IMG/VR virus record: IMGVR_UViG_3300022699_000232
Location: 1 to 64,000 of that record
DNA: 64,000 nucleotides
Direction: 5' to 3' (one strand)
DNA from: a virus
Made by a program: the position numbers and the translations under genes. Below are positions 91 through 54,203 of the stretch, one piece after another. The notes under the pieces were generated by a model that saw nothing but the letters and a program-made list of their open reading frames with translations, was not told the origin of the DNA and ran no database searches. How positions within the stretch are numbered: the first letter of the stretch is position 1; each line of letters opens with the position of its first letter.

Positions 91-912
91 TTAGACCGGT
101 GGGTCCGGAGCGTCTCGCTTATCCTTTTCAGGGATCTTACGCTGCGGAGCGTGCCGCGACGAGCGAGAAAGTTGCATGGTAAACGCCGTGAAGAAGCCGG
201 TGCCACCGAACCGGGTGTCGTTGATGACGACCTCTTCGACGTCGTAGTAGTTGTCCTGGTCACGGGGCGGGTTTGCCAGGTTGGGGATCCGGACCATGTC
301 ACCGACGCGCGGGCGAATGTTCCACTCGGTCTCGCAGAGGATCCGTGCGAGTGAGAGTCGGATGCGCTTCGTGTAGATCGCCCCTCGACCGTCTGGGGTC
401 TCCGCGCGCTCGGGATCGTAGAGAACGCCGCGCACAAGGATCGGCTCGTCGAAATCCCAGGAAGGCGTGTACTCACGTTCGACGGTGCTGATCTTGTGAC
501 CGACGAGAATAGGTTCACCCCAGAGAGCAGAAAGCTGGCTGGTATCCTCCAGCATTTCCGGCTTTCCGCCTCCGGCGTGACGCGTTTGATCGTGCGGTCC
601 AGCGATCCTGTTCTCGGTAACAGGCAAGATGTCGTCGGTGCGCTCTGTCTGGGAGCGAAGGACGTAGTAGTAGACGTTGCTCCCTCGCAGCTTCGTCATT
701 CTGCGGTTCAGCACGTCCAGGTAGCGCTTGTCCGGCGGACCAAAGAAGGTGTCGCGGTAGGCGTCTGCGGGTTGCTCTGGTGATGGCTGACCGGCCGCAG
801 TATCGGGGGCTGCCCGCACACCGAGATCTTCCTCGGTGATGCCATCCGACTCCGGGATGTCGTCGTTCTCCCGGTCCTCGTCGAAAGCCTTGTTGGTGCG
901 GTCGTCTGCCAT
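91..912 (-). CDS. Possible neck/head-completion protein (gp14-like)
   Basis: A 273-residue soluble protein with an acidic, disordered first ~45 residues and a charged, proline-containing tail. The middle contains a tyrosine-rich start (YLDVLNRR ... SNVYYYVLRSQTER), an EPILV segment occurring twice, and a block PRVGDMVRIPNL followed by YYDVEEV. This order of short motifs resembles T4 gp14-type neck proteins, where a 'PLVGD-x-I-x-x-P ... F-x-V-x-x-V' block sits near the C-terminus. It lies two genes downstream of a gp13-like protein, which is where gp14 is expected. The similarity is by eye and weak; a tail-completion or connector protein is the alternative. Confidence 0.4.
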   Translation of the reverse strand: MADDRTNKAFDEDRENDDIPESDGITEEDLGVRAAPDTAAGQPSPEQPADAYRDTFFGPPDKRYLDVLNRRMTKLRGSNVYYYVLRSQTERTDDILPVTENRIAGPHDQTRHAGGGKPEMLEDTSQLSALWGEPILVGHKISTVEREYTPSWDFDEPILVRGVLYDPERAETPDGRGAIYTKRIRLSLARILCETEWNIRPRVGDMVRIPNLANPPRDQDNYYDVEEVVINDTRFGGTGFFTAFTMQLSRSSRHAPQRKIPEKDKRDAPDPPV

Positions 913-918
913 CGGTCG

Positions 919-1524
919 TTATCCCACCACGGTCGGCGGGTTCATGTTCGCAAGGTGCTTCTGCACCGCGTCGTTTTCCCCTAGATCGCGCCTGTGCTTT
1001 TCCATTCTCCGCAGAACGGTGATCGTCTCGCGCCTTCTCTTAGGACTCAGGTAGTCCGCCATCTTCTCGCGCCCCTTACCAGGGTCCTGGACCAGGAGCG
1101 CAAGCGCAACCTCGCGTCCGTCTCCAGTGACGCGCTTCTTGATGACGTTGGGCCGCCTGAACAGTCCGTTCTCAACGTAGCTGAACGTGATGATGTTGAA
1201 GGCGCGCGCCCACTCCTGAGGTGAGATAACGATGGAGTTAGGAAGAGGGTCTTCTGGCTCTCGCTTCGACTTTCCCCGTCTGCGAAGCCACTGCTTCATC
1301 GTCTCCTTGTAGAGGATCTCGAACATACCTCTTACGAGGAGCGGCCAGGGCAGGGTCCGGTCGAGTTCCGGACCCTCGTCCTTGGCGGCATCCCTCAGCG
1401 CCTTCTCTTCACCTTCTTCGTCCGGAGCAACATCTGTGCGGCCGTAGTAGTAGTTGGCCATTGCAGTGTCGACCGCGAGGAATGGATTGAGCCCGAATCT
1501 GTTCGGTTTCCGGCTGAGGGACAT
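919..1524 (-). CDS. Conserved-looking virion-region protein, function unknown
   Basis: A 201-residue, highly charged protein with no signal peptide or membrane segment. The N-terminus (FGLNPFLAVDTAMANYYYG) looks ordered, then an acidic linker around residues 33-55, then a mixed alpha/beta-like stretch (ISPQEWARAFNIITFSY) and a basic helical C-terminus rich in R/K/E. It starts at ATG 1524, 7 bases downstream of the GroES gene stop, and ends 6 bases before the next gene, so it is co-transcribed with neck-type genes. I do not recognise the family; a small head-tail joining role is a guess from position. Confidence 0.7.
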   Translation of the reverse strand: MSLSRKPNRFGLNPFLAVDTAMANYYYGRTDVAPDEEGEEKALRDAAKDEGPELDRTLPWPLLVRGMFEILYKETMKQWLRRRGKSKREPEDPLPNSIVISPQEWARAFNIITFSYVENGLFRRPNVIKKRVTGDGREVALALLVQDPGKGREKMADYLSPKRRRETITVLRRMEKHRRDLGENDAVQKHLANMNPPTVVG

Positions 1525-1918: not shown

Positions 1919-2728
1919 CTAACCGGAGATGAGGGGAGTCGCACGCTCCCAGTTGATCGCGTCTTGCTCCAGCTTCTCCTCAAGCTGATCGGCGCGCTGA
2001 AGAAGCGCGCCACCGTTCATGGTTCGTTCTCCGCCTACCGTCGGGTAGGCGTCGTAGGTGTCTCGGATCGTGCCGAGAGTGCGCATCGCCTCGATCATCA
2101 GCTTCCGTCTGTAGTAGTCGGAGAAGCGCGGGTCGAGTTGCTCGGGACGAACGTCAGACGAGCCTACCTTGAGGATCGCGCTCGAAATCTGTGTTCCCAG
2201 ACCTCCTGCACGCGGCGGAGGCGCGATCACAAGGCGCCGAAGCTCTGGTTGCCAGTCCCAGTCGCGGTCGGTCGAGAAGATGCGTCCGATCTGCTCCAAG
2301 TACTGGAGACGCTGCACCAGGTCGGAGTAGGGCATCGGCGCCTGTTGGGGCGAGGTCCAGGCGCCAAACAGACTCGTGAAGTAGGTGAAGGAGAAGCTAT
2401 CGACGTCCAGCGTGGGAAGCTGGAAGCTAGGCAGCCAGATGTCGAAGACCTCGATGACGTCGCTGGAGAGGTAGTAGTTCGACTGACCCGGCACGAGCGG
2501 AAGCTGCTGGTACTTGATGAAACCGATTCGTTCGGCGTACCAACGATCAGTGTCGTCGAGAGCATCCTTCTTGTGGTCGTTGGTGAGTTCGATGTCGATG
2601 ATCCCACCACCCAGCTTCCGCAGGGTGTAGCCCCACCACTCGTCCTTGGTCTTCCCTGTGGGTCCGGGCTGGCCGGCTGGGGTATCAGGCGGCTGTTGCT
2701 CGGGGATGTTCTGGCCGTCGGTCGCCAT
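1919..2728 (-). CDS. Neck protein, gp13-like
   Basis: 269 residues. After a disordered Q/P/G-rich ~28 residues comes 'WWGYTLRKLGGGIIDIELTNDHKKDALDDTDRWY', laid out like T4-type gp13 neck proteins (L-x-x-LG-x-P-x-x-x-I-x-x-x-x-x-x-x-D-x-I-D-x-A-x-x-x-Y). It continues with 'GQSNYYLSSDVIEVFDIWLP', also typical of that family, where a beta segment feeds into the virion contact. The C-terminal half is helical (ADQLEEKLEQDAINWERA). In T4 gp13 helps seal the filled head and joins it to the tail. First gene of the left minus-strand unit; its minus-strand leader has GAAGG 8 bases before ATG. Family call moderate, by motif order only. Confidence 0.6.
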   Translation of the reverse strand: MATDGQNIPEQQPPDTPAGQPGPTGKTKDEWWGYTLRKLGGGIIDIELTNDHKKDALDDTDRWYAERIGFIKYQQLPLVPGQSNYYLSSDVIEVFDIWLPSFQLPTLDVDSFSFTYFTSLFGAWTSPQQAPMPYSDLVQRLQYLEQIGRIFSTDRDWDWQPELRRLVIAPPPRAGGLGTQISSAILKVGSSDVRPEQLDPRFSDYYRRKLMIEAMRTLGTIRDTYDAYPTVGGERTMNGGALLQRADQLEEKLEQDAINWERATPLISG

Positions 2729-2935
2729 AAGTCGCGCCTTCTACGTAGGGAGACACGACTATCTTAGCAGTTCGACGGCAATTACCGCACTAGGGTATAG
2801 ACGGTTATGCGCGTCAAGATCGTCGTGAGAAGCCCGAAAGGACGACGCCTGAAACGGCACTGTGTCGACGGTCAGACGCTTGCATGGATCGTTAGCGAAC
2901 AAGCCGTTGCTGAGAACAGATGAGTCAAGAAACTT

Positions 2936-2993
2936 CGCATTGGGCTCGATCAGATTGGGAATCTGAACCGTCTACCGGTTCACGTCGAATGCG
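2936..2993 (+). other. Closed multi-stem domain (three-way junction candidate)
   Basis: CGCATT (2936-2941) pairs with AATGCG (2988-2993) and encloses two perfect hairpins: TCAGATT/AATCTGA with a GGG loop (2950-2956/2960-2966) and TGAACCG/CGGTTCA with a TCTAC loop (2964-2970/2976-2982). The two inner hairpins share TGA at 2964-2966, so either one is shortened to 4 bp or they switch. The second looks like an anticodon arm, but no acceptor or T-arm accompanies it. Confidence 0.45.
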
Positions 2994-3620
2994 CTCTTGC
3001 TGTTTCAAGTCCGCTTGGGCTAGCTGTTGTCTGGATCGGCCGAACGTCGGGGCGTAGGAGAAATTCTAGGTCTGCCGTGGAGAGTTGCGCGCCGGAAACA
3101 GCGGCTCTGATGGACGTTGACGGGGATGCTGCCAAGAAAGAGGCTGCCTGGCGCACTCTTATGAGGGCCTACGACGACCACTGGACGCCGCTCGAAATCC
3201 TCGCGGCCGTGGCCGAGTGATGATGGCCTGCGCCGGTGCGCGTATCTTCTTCCAAACGAGAGACTTACTATTTTCTCGAATTCCTCTTGCGCCGACCCGG
3301 CGCATCTGGTCTAAACGTTCCTGCTCAGCGACGGCTGGGTGACGCAGTTTGACAACCGTACCGCCAAAGCCCAGGGCGCCAGGAACCACCAGGAGCCGTA
3401 CGGCTAACACCGTATGTCACCAGGAGGGGGAGTAGCGCCCACCGGCGGAAACTCACCGAACTTCGGTTCGGCAGAGAGTCGTCGGCACCAGCCAAGTCGG
3501 TTGGATGGGAGTCTGTGTAGGATCAAGACCGAAGATCTTTCGGGGTCTGACGTTGAGATTGAGTCGGCGCACGGGGATGCCTGGGTAACACCGGGGGGAT
3601 TCGGGCGTCGGTGCTCCGGT

Positions 3621-3640
3621 CAGGTCGTTTCGACGATCTG
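3621..3640 (+). other. Hairpin with TTCG tetraloop
   Basis: CAGGTCGT (3621-3628) pairs with ACGATCTG (3633-3640) with one G-T wobble, closing a TTCG loop (3629-3632). UUCG loops are unusually stable in RNA. An alternative register (GTCG/CGAC with a TTT loop) is also possible. Confidence 0.5.
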
Positions 3641-3766
3641 GTGGGAGGCGCAGCGGTGCGGTTGAGATGACAGCGTGCGTAACGGGTAAGGCCGTCGTGC
3701 GTGCGTCTGTTGATTGGATGTTCCTCACCGTCCAGCCAGTCTAACAGCCCGTCGGAGCGGAGCCGG

Positions 3767-3805
3767 GAAGAGGCGGCAGCGGCGAAAGCCGGTGCCGCTC
3801 TCTTC
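3767..3805 (+). other. 16-bp hairpin with GAAA tetraloop
   Basis: Six pairs (3767-3772 with 3800-3805), one bulged T (3799), six pairs (3773-3778 with 3793-3798), one G-G mismatch (3779/3792), four pairs (3780-3783 with 3788-3791) and a GAAA loop (3784-3787). No T-run follows on either strand, so it is not a standard terminator. GNRA loops often dock in tertiary contacts of large RNAs. This is the strongest single structure in the gap. Confidence 0.65.
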
Positions 3806-3849
3806 ATGTACGGGCGATGCGCAGCCGTCGCGCAATACCCCATCGCTTA

Positions 3850-3912
3850 CCATTCGGTTCCTTCACAAGTCCCCGCATGACGTGCCATAATCATGCCGAG
3901 GGACCCGAATGG
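3850..3912 (+). promoter_or_regulatory. Helix burying the ribosome binding site and start codon of the next gene
   Basis: Bases 3850-3855 pair with 3907-3912 and 3856-3863 pair with 3898-3905 (two G-T wobbles), leaving only C3906 bulged: 14 pairs in all. The 3' arm holds both the likely ribosome binding site GAGGGA (3898-3903) and the ATG (3909-3911) of the following gene. If formed in mRNA this would block initiation until opened by a ribosome, protein, alternative fold or processing. Pairing is seen directly; regulation is inferred. Confidence 0.5.
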
Positions 3913-4652
3913 CAGCCGTCGATCTCCTTACAACAAAGCCGCCGCAGAGCGTGCATCTGTTTCCGACGACGTCCGGTGCCATCCCGGCCGGCTCCGATCT
4001 TGTGCAGCGGCAACAGGAAGAAGCTCTCTTCTTCCAGTACTGGCCTCAATCGCTCGTCGACGACTACCAGGTCGAATACGCGGAGCATCAGGTCCCCGGC
4101 GGCTCGCATCCGCTCTATCAATGGGTCGGGGGGCGCGGTCGTGTGATCTCCTTCCAGGCGATCTTTACCTCCGAACTCAATACCTCCGGGTTAGGCCGAG
4201 TCAATGCTTCAGGCTTCATCCCATCTTCTACCGCTGGCGCTGTCGCGGTTGCGAGTAACCTGACGCCATCGAATCCCTTTACAGTCGATGTCTCGGCGGC
4301 GCTTAATCGACTTCGCGCCTGGCTGCGTCCTCGCTACCAGTCGGGTGGTCGACTGGGGGTAGTTTCTCCGCCCCCAAAACTGACGCTGGTTTTCCCTGGA
4401 ACGAGTCTCAACGGAACCAGTGACCTCATCACCGTTATCCTCAGAAGCGCTCCGGTCACTATCGAGTCGTGGTTCCCGGATGGACAACCGCGTGTGGCGA
4501 CAGTGGATCTGACGTTCAACGAGATCGTCCAGTCCTCGTCCGGCCAAGGCGATACGACCTCGGTCGAGTTCATCGGGCGAGACAACTTCGCAGAGGCAGG
4601 TCGCGGCTACCGCTTTCGTGGTCTCCCAGATCGACCCTTTGTGGGAGCGTAA
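3909..4652 (+). CDS. Tail-tube/baseplate junction protein, contractile-injection-system hub type
   Basis: 247 residues, no signal peptide. The layout resembles tube-end/hub proteins of contractile tails and injection systems: an N-terminal beta region with 'YAEHQVPGGSHPLYQWVGGRGRVISF' (the usual 'P-x-Y-x-x-x-G-x-R-x-x-x-F' strand), 'FTVDVSAALNRLRAWLRPRY', 'PPPKLTLVFPG' and 'VTIESWFPDGQPRVATVDLTFNEI', the last like the 'F-x-x-D-G-x-P-x-R-A-x-V-x-V-x-L-x-E' ending of that family. It would sit where the tail tube meets the baseplate. It is isolated on the plus strand between two minus-strand blocks, with one small gene after it. The start is buried in a helix. Alternative: another baseplate beta-protein. 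Confidence 0.5.
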   Translation: MAAVDLLTTKPPQSVHLFPTTSGAIPAGSDLVQRQQEEALFFQYWPQSLVDDYQVEYAEHQVPGGSHPLYQWVGGRGRVISFQAIFTSELNTSGLGRVNASGFIPSSTAGAVAVASNLTPSNPFTVDVSAALNRLRAWLRPRYQSGGRLGVVSPPPKLTLVFPGTSLNGTSDLITVILRSAPVTIESWFPDGQPRVATVDLTFNEIVQSSSGQGDTTSVEFIGRDNFAEAGRGYRFRGLPDRPFVGA

Positions 4653-5276: not shown

Positions 5277-5818
5277 TAAGGCACCGTAGTACGCGAGCCG
5301 CCGTTGTTACGGTGCGTGAAGAGGTCGTTACCCTTCGCGTCCTTGTAGGTGGCGTCCACAGGCGGGCAGGGCGCCGGTGTCGGATCGAGGTCCACGTCGC
5401 CGACGAGCTTAGCGCGGACCTCCGACAGGACGGTCTTGCGCGACAGGCATCCGTCGACCAGGCACTTGAGACGGATCTCACCAGGCGCGACGTTGCGCGT
5501 GGGGCTGGTAACGGTGGGGATCACTACCCAAGAGTCATCGACAGATGGGTCGAGTGTGCTGATGATCGACGTATCGAGCCCATCCGGGTGGCTCGCAGAG
5601 GAGAGCGTGTAGACGCCTGGGGCGTTGGTCGCGTCTTTCTCCGTTAGTGCCTGGTCGAGTGTCGTAACAGAGCCGACCGCCTTGAATGTGTCGTCGTCCC
5701 AGTCGAGGAAGAACCCGTCGGAGTTTCGGCAGATGCGGATCGTGACCGTCTGTGCGGTCCGAAACGTGTTGATGACGATGGGTTCGACGTCGTCGTATTC
5801 GATCTCGCAACAAAGCAT
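5276..5818 (-). CDS. Fibre/baseplate-associated protein with N-terminal beta domain
   Basis: 180 residues. Residues ~15-75 form a beta-rich unit, 'TVTIRICRNSDGFFLDWDDDTFK' then 'APGVYTLSSAS', the pattern of Ig-like or BppU-type domains in phage baseplate-fibre adaptor proteins (strand, DG turn, strand, 'PG-x-Y-x-L'). A second part carries four cysteines (IRLKCLVDGCL, CPP). It sits downstream of the 323-residue virion protein, 17 bases apart. Role as a fibre adaptor is inferred from domain style and context. Confidence 0.6.
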   Translation of the reverse strand: MLCCEIEYDDVEPIVINTFRTAQTVTIRICRNSDGFFLDWDDDTFKAVGSVTTLDQALTEKDATNAPGVYTLSSASHPDGLDTSIISTLDPSVDDSWVVIPTVTSPTRNVAPGEIRLKCLVDGCLSRKTVLSEVRAKLVGDVDLDPTPAPCPPVDATYKDAKGNDLFTHRNNGGSRTTVP

Positions 5819-5835
5819 GACACCGTCAGTTTACG

Positions 5836-6807
5836 TCATTCGACTTCCGTGATGCCGTAAACGACGACAGATGCCCAGGTGCCCGTGAAAGGCTCGTTCT
5901 TACTGAGCGTTACCTTCATATATGCGGCGAGGTTACCGTCCAGAGGGATCTCCGAGAGATACTTCACTTCGTGGATGCGTACAGGCGAATCGAGTCCGCG
6001 AGGTGAGCCTGCCCCCTGAGCGGGGGCCTCGGGATGAGTGACGTGCGCCCAGTTGTGGATGTCTTTCTGGTTCTTGATGACGGTCGGTCGGCGAGCGGAC
6101 ATCGGGGTTCCAGCCGGAAGCCCAAATGCGCCGGAATCGACGTAGACGTTGTTGGTGATAGACGAAGTGATGACGACGTCAGCAGTAGTCTGTACCTCGA
6201 CCTTTTCGATGATGTATTTGGTTCCGACAGGCGGCTTCACGACGATCTGTGCTGCCGCGTCACTGTCCACCCAGTAGTAGGTGATCTCGACCGTCTCGGT
6301 GCCAGCGAAGGCGTTATAGAAGGTGACGAGCCCGGCCTGGTAGTCGATCTCGTAGTTGCCTCCGCTTGTCTCGCCGTAGGCTCGCTCGGTCTGCTCGACT
6401 CCGTCAACCGAGACAAGAGGCACGTAGCCGGAGAGGTCGCCGACAGCCGCGCCGTAGGGAGGACCCCAGATCGCGAACGGGTCAGATCCCGAGGGCGCGA
6501 TGTAGCCGCTGCCCATTGCTCGGTATTGACCGTTCGGGTTGACGATGTCGTTCTCGTCGCCGACCTTGCCGTGCGACAGGTCGATGACCGCTTCGTCCGG
6601 TGCTGCACCGTGTCCTAGCTGGATCGTTGTCTCACCGTTCGACGGATTGAACGTCTCCGTAGTGACCTGTGCATCGTGGTACCAGGTAGAGCGGTCGCAG
6701 AAGTTGACCGAGAAGCTGTAGACCCGGTCGTGTTCCGAGCCGTCAGGCTTACGTAGCTGCACCTGTGGTCGGTTTTCGACGGAGATCTTGCGAGGTGTGA
6801 TATGCAT
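5836..6807 (-). CDS. Virion structural protein of the fibre block
   Basis: 323 residues, beta-rich throughout, no signal peptide. It contains several GYI/GYV turns, an Asp/Gly-rich segment 'NYEIDYQAGLVTFYNAFAGTETVEITYYW' typical of small fibre-linked beta domains, and a C-terminal block (YMKVTLSKNEPFTGTWASVVVYGI) like a jelly-roll edge. Lies 6 bases after the 185-residue gene and before the 180-residue gene on the minus strand. No enzyme motif. Probably a baseplate or fibre-attachment component. Confidence 0.65.
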   Translation of the reverse strand: MHITPRKISVENRPQVQLRKPDGSEHDRVYSFSVNFCDRSTWYHDAQVTTETFNPSNGETTIQLGHGAAPDEAVIDLSHGKVGDENDIVNPNGQYRAMGSGYIAPSGSDPFAIWGPPYGAAVGDLSGYVPLVSVDGVEQTERAYGETSGGNYEIDYQAGLVTFYNAFAGTETVEITYYWVDSDAAAQIVVKPPVGTKYIIEKVEVQTTADVVITSSITNNVYVDSGAFGLPAGTPMSARRPTVIKNQKDIHNWAHVTHPEAPAQGAGSPRGLDSPVRIHEVKYLSEIPLDGNLAAYMKVTLSKNEPFTGTWASVVVYGITEVE

Positions 6808-6813
6808 GGCGCC

Positions 6814-7371
6814 CTAGCAGGTAATGATGATCTCGTAGTCGGCAGAACCGCCGGTCGTCTTCACCCAGACGGACGCCAACTCGACTTCGGCGGTCAGGAT
6901 CGATCCGGGGTCGAGCGTCTTGTAGTTGGCCCCGCCGTCTAGGCTGAGGAGCAGATCGGTTCCAGACGGACCAGGCGGGCCATCAGACTCCATGTTCTCG
7001 ACCAGAATGCTGCGAGATCGCATGCCGAAATCGACCTCAGCAGGTGATGTGGTGGCAGTGCCATTGAAGTGCTTCGCCGCGGAAGCGATACGCTGAGGCA
7101 GATTGACGGTCGATGACCAGTTGTCCTCGTAGTCCTGGCGCCAGGAGTCGTTGTCGCTGATCTGCTGCGGCGTCCAACCGTTCGGAATGAACCCCGACTT
7201 GAGGATCTCCGTGCGGTAGATGACCGACTCGTCGGCGACGAAGAGACTGATCGCGCGGTCCGACTCTTCAGCCTGGAGCCGGAGCGCCTTCTCAGTTTCA
7301 TCGAGAAGCTTCTTGAACTCCGGCCAATCTCGTTGGAACGAAATGGACTGTCGAGGATCACCGACGGGCAT
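6814..7371 (-). CDS. Virion protein with helical N-terminus and beta C-terminus
   Basis: 185 residues. The first ~55 are helical (WPEFKKLLDETEKALRLQAEES), the middle is polar, and the last ~70 form a beta domain with 'LLLSLDGGANYKTLDPGSILTAEVEL'. The C-terminal style matches small carbohydrate-binding or fibre-tip beta-sandwiches, the N-terminus a coiled-coil attachment. It follows the 557-residue fibre gene, with a strong hairpin in the 58-base gap between them. Family not recognised. Confidence 0.65.
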   Translation of the reverse strand: MPVGDPRQSISFQRDWPEFKKLLDETEKALRLQAEESDRAISLFVADESVIYRTEILKSGFIPNGWTPQQISDNDSWRQDYEDNWSSTVNLPQRIASAAKHFNGTATTSPAEVDFGMRSRSILVENMESDGPPGPSGTDLLLSLDGGANYKTLDPGSILTAEVELASVWVKTTGGSADYEIIITC

Positions 7372-16701: not shown

Positions 16702-17138
16702 AGACGCTCCCTGGCGGTTAGAGCATACCACGACCTAACTGTCGAGATCGTATCGCCTTCCACATGGTAGCTTGAGTATTCCTCCCTTTTCCAGGAGGAG
16801 GAGGAGGAAGGGGATCTTCCTCGTTCTGCTTCCTGCGCCCATAATTTTTCTCGCACAGACTACAACCAACTCGGTAGAAATACCCAGCGCCTATTAGGCG
16901 CAACCTCAGAGCGGAAGTGCCTCGGTATCCCCCTTAAAGGGTTACCAACCGTCCTGGACACTGATCGTTCTTTGTTGGACCTCTTGGTCTGACGGGCAAT
17001 TAAGCCGGTCGATTGAAAGCGCGTTTACGAGACTCGCTCGAAACGAGACTCGTAAAATCGGACATAGTCCGTCTTTAGATTGACTGTCCTTGATAACTCG
17101 CCAAGAGGTGATTCGTGTCGGCACCCAGGAGGAGATGA
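16702..17138. other. Non-coding gap between divergent blocks, hairpin-rich
   Basis: About 440 bases with no convincing gene. It holds a run of stems: GAGGAAG/CTTCCTC (16804-16822), GCGCCT/AGGCGC with ATT loop (16887-16901), GGTA..CCCT/AGGG..TACC (16924-16946), GACC/GGTC with TCTT loop (16978-16989), a 12-bp stem (17024-17056) and CGGAC/GTCCG with ATA loop (17059-17071). Promoters for both flanking blocks are expected here, but no clear -35/-10 pair is visible. A strong ribosome binding site AGGAGG (17127-17132) serves the plus-strand gene. A 61-codon minus frame (TTG start at 16903) is judged doubtful. Confidence 0.5.
17024..17056 (+). repeat. Nested inverted and direct repeat
   Basis: TTTACGAG (17024-17031) pairs with CTCGTAAA (17049-17056); after an A-A mismatch CTCG (17033-17036) pairs with CGAG (17044-17047) around a 7-base loop. 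The same bases form a direct repeat of ACGAGACTCG (17027-17036 and 17043-17052, offset by 16). Such arrays can be RNA hairpins or two operator half-sites on one DNA face. Confidence 0.55.
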
Positions 17139-52850: not shown

Positions 52851-53615
52851 ATGCCGTTTAGCTCCGGATTACTCCACAGCTTTAGGCCGCGACAGCTTGC
52901 TTCTTTCTCCTCCGGTCTGCTCCACTCACTGGTGCAGGGACCAGGTCGTCAGTTCACTGGTCTTACGGAAGACGAGGCGGAGTTCCCGCCGGCACAGGTC
53001 TACAGCGCCTCTACTGGGGATGTCATCATCACCGCTCCAGCACGTCAGTACGGGGGTACGTCGAGCGCCATTACGGTCTTGCCGCCTGCGCAGGTCTATA
53101 GTGGTAACGTTGGTGATGTTGTCCCTCCTATCGTCAGCGCATTTGGCTTCGGCGGCACAACCGGTGGTGAGGTGATCTTTACCATTCTCCCGGCCCCTCT
53201 CAATCTGACGGCTACGGTTGTGGACGCGGGCGATGTGGACCTGGTGTGGATCGATGCAAGTAGCGGCGGAGCCGATGGGTTCCGCGTCGAACGCTCGTTG
53301 ACGGGGCAGAATACCTGGGAAGAGATCGGCGAAACCGAGCCCACGGAGACGAGCTTCCGGGATCGGTTCGCCATCCCCCTTGTCACCTACGACTACCGCG
53401 TATTCGCCTTCGATTCGGTGGGTGATTCGCTTCCATCGAATATTGCGATGGCGACGACGCCTCTTCCTCCGAACATCTCGACTCCCCCACCGCCAACGAC
53501 TCCTGCTGACCCACAGCGCAATAAGCTGAAGCCATCGGAGGTCGAGTTCCTCAGTCCTGGTGTTTACGGTCTCGAAGAGGATGATGAGGGGAACATCACT
53601 GGGAACAAGCTATGA
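52851..53615 (+). CDS. FN3-domain virion protein with a C-terminal 'SPGVY' tag
   Basis: 254 residues. N-terminus with two copies of 'FSSGLLHS', then two strand-rich stretches each ending 'PPAQVYS'. Residues ~120-205 form a fibronectin type III domain (PLNLTATVVDAGDVDLVWIDAS ... YDYRVFAFDSVGDSLPSN). After a proline-rich hinge the last 30 residues (KLKPSEVEFLSPGVYGLEED ... GNITGNKL) are repeated at the end of the next protein, so this is a shared tag, perhaps a docking peptide. Confidence 0.75.
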   Translation: MPFSSGLLHSFRPRQLASFSSGLLHSLVQGPGRQFTGLTEDEAEFPPAQVYSASTGDVIITAPARQYGGTSSAITVLPPAQVYSGNVGDVVPPIVSAFGFGGTTGGEVIFTILPAPLNLTATVVDAGDVDLVWIDASSGGADGFRVERSLTGQNTWEEIGETEPTETSFRDRFAIPLVTYDYRVFAFDSVGDSLPSNIAMATTPLPPNISTPPPPTTPADPQRNKLKPSEVEFLSPGVYGLEEDDEGNITGNKL

Positions 53616-53660
53616 TGGTCGGCGCAATTCGTCGCCGCCTTACGATTTGCGAGTAATCCT

Positions 53661-54203
53661 GTGCCACCTCCTCAGTCGTCTATAGGACCGACGTTCGATC
53701 ACTTTACGACCAGTGGCGCACCTAGCTCTAGCGGTCCGATCTTCGATCACGTCGCAGAGGCAGCACCCACAACCTCACTCGGTGCGGTTGCAGATCGGTT
53801 CACCTCCGCAAACCCCAGCGATTCCGCCGGACCGATCTTCGATCACATAGCGGAAGGGATTCCGGGGGCCTCGTTCGGACCAGTAAGCGACGCCTTCTCG
53901 CTCATCGGAATTTCGGCTGTTGGGCCCGTGTTCGACCACGAAACCGAAGCCACGCTACCAGCAAATGACGTGCATGGACCCGTCATCGACTCTTTTGCCC
54001 AGAAGGGGGTGGATGCCGTCGGCCCTGTGTTCGATCATGTGGTGGCAACTATCTCACCTCTTACCGTCAGCGACCCTGAATCGCTCATCCCGGTCGACGT
54101 CGAGCGTAACCAGTTGGATCCTCAGGACGTAGAATACCTTAGCCCCGGCGTCTATTCTGGCGAGAAGGATCCTGAGGGGAACATCACAGGCAATAAGTTC
54201 TGA
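53661..54203 (+). CDS. Protein with repeated GPxFDH motif and the same C-terminal tag
   Basis: 180 residues, GTG start (weak ribosome binding site). 'GP-x-FDH' or a close variant occurs six times at ~18-24 residue spacing (GPTFDHF, GPIFDHV, GPIFDHI, GPVFDHE, GPVIDSF, GPVFDHV), with 'LGAVADRF' and 'FGPVSDAF' as two more worn copies. The end (NQLDPQDVEYLSPGVYSG ... GNITGNKF) copies the FN3 protein's tag. A regular histidine-bearing repeat suits a trimeric, metal-binding shaft, but that is inference. Confidence 0.65.
   Translation: MPPPQSSIGPTFDHFTTSGAPSSSGPIFDHVAEAAPTTSLGAVADRFTSANPSDSAGPIFDHIAEGIPGASFGPVSDAFSLIGISAVGPVFDHETEATLPANDVHGPVIDSFAQKGVDAVGPVFDHVVATISPLTVSDPESLIPVDVERNQLDPQDVEYLSPGVYSGEKDPEGNITGNKF

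Follow-up and report, generated by a model that had tools for sequence, protein, structure and literature searches.

The window analysed here comprises positions 1-64000 of the record of an uncultured, large-phage-like virus, 74,287 bases in total. Between 2729 and 3908 lie 1180 nt without any gene-length frame, and no other interval separating confidently called genes in the window comes near this length. This gap is bordered on the left by a head-tail adaptor gene, whose only cultured-phage relatives were neck-type proteins of jumbo phages (337-490-kb) at 24-28% identity, and on the right by a tail-protein-like gene that is 56-59% identical in relatives. A GroES-like co-chaperonin (Cpn10, E 5e-25) was found to be encoded at 1532-1897, within the structural gene cluster. 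The first-pass annotation had described a 1.1-kb gap with no convincing gene; the gap is real, but 2807-3220 turned out to be a homologue of a small frame that is intact in two relatives (L002 and L006). The features of the locus are the following.

1919-2728, minus strand: head-tail adaptor (Ad2-like) gene, left neighbour (PHROG 211, E 9e-7)
2807-3220, plus strand: decayed small gene with an in-frame TGA at 2921, beside the RNA and not part of it
3287-3315, plus strand: putative promoter, TTGCGC (3287-3292), 17-bp spacer ending in TGG (extended -10), TCTAAA (3310-3315)
3320-3806, plus strand: large structured non-coding RNA, about 485-490 nt, delimited by alignment A2, consensus-fold energy, covariation and single-sequence folding (all below)
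3862-3891: promoter-like site of the tail gene itself, TTCACA-18-CATAAT
3909-4652, plus strand: tail-protein-like gene, right neighbour (weak PHROG 76 match)

When the gap was folded and compared with dinucleotide shuffles, the plus strand of 2920-3915 gave z -2.9 and its minus strand -0.24, and 3320-3812 gave z -4.6 and -1.3, respectively; only on the plus strand did the stems exceed chance, with a fold energy below the shuffles, the comparison that the first-pass annotation had proposed. The segment 2729-3290 folded no better than its shuffles (z +0.24), and the window's other intergenic gaps of 270-410 nt ranged from z +1.4 to -2.8. A divergent intergenic gap at 16732-17138 folded below its shuffles in either orientation, with z -2.8 and -2.1. 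The large structured RNA suspected in the first-pass annotation is real, but it is limited to about 3320-3806 on the plus strand instead of filling the whole 1.1 kb, so that the earlier extent was about two-fold too long. Both of the capped stems named there are present: the one with a GAAA loop is the hairpin 3767-3805, and the 8-bp one with a TTCG loop spans 3621-3640. A further stem, around 3851-3913, is part of the start region of the following gene and falls outside the RNA.

A scan with the adaptor protein yielded five related IMG/VR contigs, in which the adaptor is 83-88% identical, and the RNA was found in the same gap in four of them (L002, L004, L005 and L006). The fifth, L003, has an adaptor gene 84% identical to that of the window and only about 115 bp at the locus (approximately 6808-6922, reverse complement). 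Two covariance models were used, R2 for the 5′ part and R1 for the 3′ part of the RNA; R2 recovered all five copies at 146-195 bits and R1 all five at 97-126 bits, and a filters-off search of L003 with R2 found no RNA. L003 is a natural empty site at which the flanking promoter-like sequences, including the CATAAT-like site of the tail gene, are retained. Since it lacks the RNA, the RNA appears as a dispensable cassette, which suggests that it is dispensable within this phage group.

The RNA is single-copy, and the five known copies all belong to one narrow phage group. Nothing convincing was obtained with R1 and R2 in 15 other related virus records (that of L003 and 14 more distant ones), and in the 14 more distant relatives, found via the tail gene, the RNA was absent over the whole, probably fragmentary, records. 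No further copy came from scanning IMG/VR and a set with one genome per species for sequence patterns, nor from looser 5′-motif and 3′-motif scans, and blastn against cultured phages and plasmids returned nothing real; none was thus found in the sampled distant relatives, cultured phages, plasmids and cellular genomes. A scan of genome contigs with a 19-nt 5′ motif did return 95 stretches, along with three further viral contigs. In L012, however, the motif translates as LLSDGWV, and the similarity nearly always breaks off after some 25-60 nt, so these matches were rejected as coding or chance.

The window copy and the four others were aligned on sequence alone (alignment A2, 576 columns) and proved alignable from end to end at pairwise identities of 56-80%. 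The RNAalifold consensus of A2 reached -165 kcal/mol on the plus strand, with z -19.0 against 100 column shuffles, and z -6.4 was obtained for the consensus energy of the reverse strand; folded singly, the five copies gave z -2.1 to -4.6. Standard pairs occupied 88.9% of the consensus pair cells. It is clear from the alignment that compensatory changes, which the first-pass annotation had named as a check, are extensive: 65 of the 174 consensus base pairs were changed on both sides, against 30.8 +/- 3.9 in shuffles (0 of 500 as high as 65) and 12-19 when the partners were slid. The signal persisted when L004 was left out (58 double-changed pairs), and the three most divergent copies alone (window, L002 and L006) still provided 40. 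No reading frame common to the copies was found, in keeping with the first reading of the gap, and among the pairwise indels of the five copies only 19 of 123 were divisible by three; the RNA is therefore taken to be non-coding. With a covarying, multi-domain, non-coding fold that extends over some 0.5 kb of these phage genomes, it has the features that characterise a large structured phage ncRNA, and there is strong support for a large, structured and non-coding RNA being conserved at this locus.

The consensus resolves the RNA, about 490-550 nt long among the copies, into a closing helix P1 (3323-3340 paired with 3746-3763), three domains and a 3′ hairpin.

3320-3341, plus strand: conserved 5′ motif CCTGCTCAGCGACGGCTGGGTG, near-invariant in all copies, 5′ strand of P1
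3321-3323, plus strand: probable 5′ end of the RNA, the 3′ end lying at the terminator-like hairpin
3368-3510, plus strand: 5′ domain, multi-branch with three arms (helices 5-11)
3514-3652, plus strand: central domain (helices 12-20), with UUCG and GNRA-like loop caps
3653-3745, plus strand: 3′ domain (helices 21-23), in which the loop stretch TGTTCYTCACCGTCCA is nearly invariant
3746-3763, plus strand: 3′ strand of P1 (helix 1, 96% of cells paired)
3767-3805, plus strand: G+C-rich 3′ hairpin (helix 24) capped by GAAA and followed by a C/T-rich tail, probably an intrinsic terminator

Several arms of the 5′ domain are UUCG-capped in relatives, and a branch of about 55 nt in the central domain of the relatives is missing from the window copy, where it appears as a gap in A2. 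The 3′ domain contains the nearly invariant UGUUCYUCACCGUCCA. A covarying kissing loop was sought in the alignment and none was found; the sole pseudoknot candidate, columns 62-66 with 473-477, is weak and supported by purine-pyrimidine pattern only.

The decayed frame at 2807-3220 aligns with intact frames of 136 aa in L002 and 144 aa in L006, the intact homologues lying at 5527-5937 (minus strand) in L002 and at 749-1183 (minus strand) in L006/L010, with W where the window has TGA. No Pfam or PHROG match was obtained for this small gene. It is absent from L004 and L005, both of which keep the RNA, and the RNA is thus independent of it. The TGA at a conserved W, together with the rarity of TGA stops, had suggested TGA recoding; this was rejected because two paralogous genes, and the gene at 5836, truly end in TGA. 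Stop codons in the 51 window genes are TAG in 32, TAA in 14 and TGA in 5, which is unusual at about 60% GC. The adjacent genes 52851-53615 and 53616-54203, both ending in TGA, have a common C-terminal block (LSPGVY...EGNITGNK[LF]) and appear to carry duplicated virion-protein tails.

Upstream of the RNA start, all five copies carry TTGnnn, a spacer of exactly 17 bp ending in TGG and then TCTAAA, TCTAAC or TCCACT, at a fixed, ungapped spacing, and the 3′ hairpin is followed in the copies by a CCTTCTTTC-like tail. A generic sigma-70 consensus scan did not list 3287-3315 among its matches, nor did a strict U-run terminator scan list the 3767-3805 hairpin, so both calls rest on conservation; we infer that 3287-3315 is the promoter of the RNA. 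A promoter-like element at a fixed distance and a 3′ hairpin in five of five copies point to a probably free-standing transcript, and it is highly probable that the locus encodes a real, free-standing ncRNA.

Alternatively, the RNA could act in cis on the tail gene that follows it, as a long 5′ leader, an attenuator or a 3′ element. It precedes the gene at 3909 in the same orientation, and read-through transcripts would make the hairpin at 3851-3913, whose 3′ arm holds the start codon of the tail gene. However, the terminator-like hairpin ends the RNA about 100 nt before this gene, which has its own promoter-like site at 3862-3891, with a similar CATAAT site in the RNA-less L003; to our knowledge, 490 nt is also far above the size of known leaders, and we consider such an element improbable. 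As for the 3851-3913 hairpin itself, its 5′ arm lies upstream of the promoter-like site of the gene, so that it would form in read-through transcripts only, and most relatives have start-region hairpins at the same place with a different sequence. In T4 late genes, a comparable start-codon hairpin is formed only by read-through transcripts.

A search of the window at gathering scores against Rfam 15 (OLE, HEARO, raiA, introns, tmRNA, RNase P etc.) gave 0 matches, and lax searches (E up to 10; lax-filter cmscan) gave chance-level scores only, none of them near threshold. This bears on the idea of a protein-bound guide or catalytic RNA (omega-RNA/HEARO-like, a ribozyme, or a relative of group I/II introns), with which the size and the GNRA/UUCG-capped arms would be compatible. 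Even with E allowed up to 10, no such model matched; genes for a nuclease or a reverse transcriptase were not recognised alongside, no gene is interrupted by the RNA, and the sole adjacent small frame is the decayed, unmatched one that L004 and L005 lack; such an RNA likewise has little probability.

Membership of GOLLD or ROOL, raised in the first-pass annotation, was not supported by searches with the two models in 20 records (G000-G019), that of the window and 19 from relatives. The GOLLD model (RF02032, conserved 3′ region) matched none of these 20 records, nor did the ROOL model (RF03087) at E<=10, in a search whose sensitivity was not demonstrated as the control genomes were also silent. 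ARAGORN found 0 tRNAs in the 64-kb window, and the tRNA-island setting that is frequent, though not constant, for ROOL is thus absent. ROOL resembles the present RNA as a large, ornate, free-standing ncRNA of phages and prophages with many arms and a similar length (574 model positions against about 490-550 nt), but the missing model match and tRNAs set the two apart and a different fold is likely. GOLLD, also a phage-borne large ornate RNA of unassigned function, is often >800 nt, with a conserved 3′ half, a variable 5′ half and tRNAs nearby or internal (PMC12286853). The RNA described here, in contrast, is shorter and conserved over its whole length, mean column identity being 76% in the 5′ domain and 77% in the 3′ domain. 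A divergent ROOL or GOLLD, of the same family but past the reach of the models, would share the size class, phage location, ornate fold and GAAA and UUCG caps, and is nevertheless very improbable in view of the unmatched models (with the ROOL controls silent), the empty lax-filter cmscan and the lack of tRNAs. Chance structure in GC-rich decayed coding sequence has next to no probability: strong stems are expected anyway at 63% GC and a decayed gene lies immediately upstream, but energy and covariation, when set against the shuffled and slid controls, contradict it, the actual decayed gene has no excess structure (z +1.3), and covariation refutes it.

The RNA is thus a new family of the large-phage-RNA kind, neither ROOL nor GOLLD, with the limit on ROOL search sensitivity given above; the suggestion of a possible new family made at first reading agrees with the lack of Rfam matches and the compensatory changes. 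In setting, it parallels the RNA of about 800 nt that is the most abundant transcript of phage ICP1 and lies between gp139 and gp140 in an orf-less 1-kb gap with no tRNAs nearby (PMC7567579). Rfam gave no strong match to that RNA either, and R1 and R2 with filters off found no similarity to it, so that the parallel is one of setting and not of sequence. The pRNA of phi29, about 174 nt, is a phage structural ncRNA beside morphogenesis functions, as is the location here; the present RNA has no Rfam match, and nothing ties it to packaging.

We lean towards a structural RNA of roughly 0.5 kb that is transcribed on its own, acts in trans and founds an undescribed family of large phage RNAs, as the best explanation of the covarying fold, the fixed promoter- and terminator-like signals, the lack of coding, the single copy and the empty site. 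The anatomy fits a stable RNA of this type, with a putative promoter and terminator of its own, ends that pair with each other, arms that carry capped loops, and invariant motifs. The RNA would form a one-gene cassette between the divergent head-tail and tail genes: RNA polymerase would start near 3321-3323, P1 would form between the two ends of the chain and close the three-domain core, and the transcript would end at the hairpin 3767-3805. With lower confidence, the RNA may reach a high level during infection and may act architecturally, either as a homo-oligomer like ROOL and GOLLD or as a scaffold for a protein of the host or the phage. It would do so by way of two invariant internal motifs, GUUUGACAA and UGUUCYUCACCGUCCA; invariant single-stranded motifs of this kind suggest tertiary or partner contacts. 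ROOL and GOLLD assemble into protein-free, RNA-only cages (PMC12286853), and because of this analogy an architectural role appears the most likely one, though it is put forward tentatively; a homo-oligomeric cage specifically, drawn from the same analogy and comparable to the homo-octamer of ROOL, is doubtful. GOLLD was reported to be dispensable in a Lactobacillus brevis prophage (PMC7567579).

It is conceivable, if unlikely, that this would be a third unrelated phage RNA family that self-assembles into a protein-free particle, here in a head-tail morphogenesis region and independently of a tRNA cluster; if true, RNA particles would have arisen repeatedly in phage evolution. Only a few natural RNAs as large and complex as this one have been described, and those from phages, ROOL and GOLLD, are without an assigned function despite their RNA-only cages. 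An unrelated family with compact domains, clear ends and a natural RNA-less genome (L003) makes it possible to ask, independently of these two, whether RNAs of the large ornate type converge on oligomeric particles and what their role in infection is.
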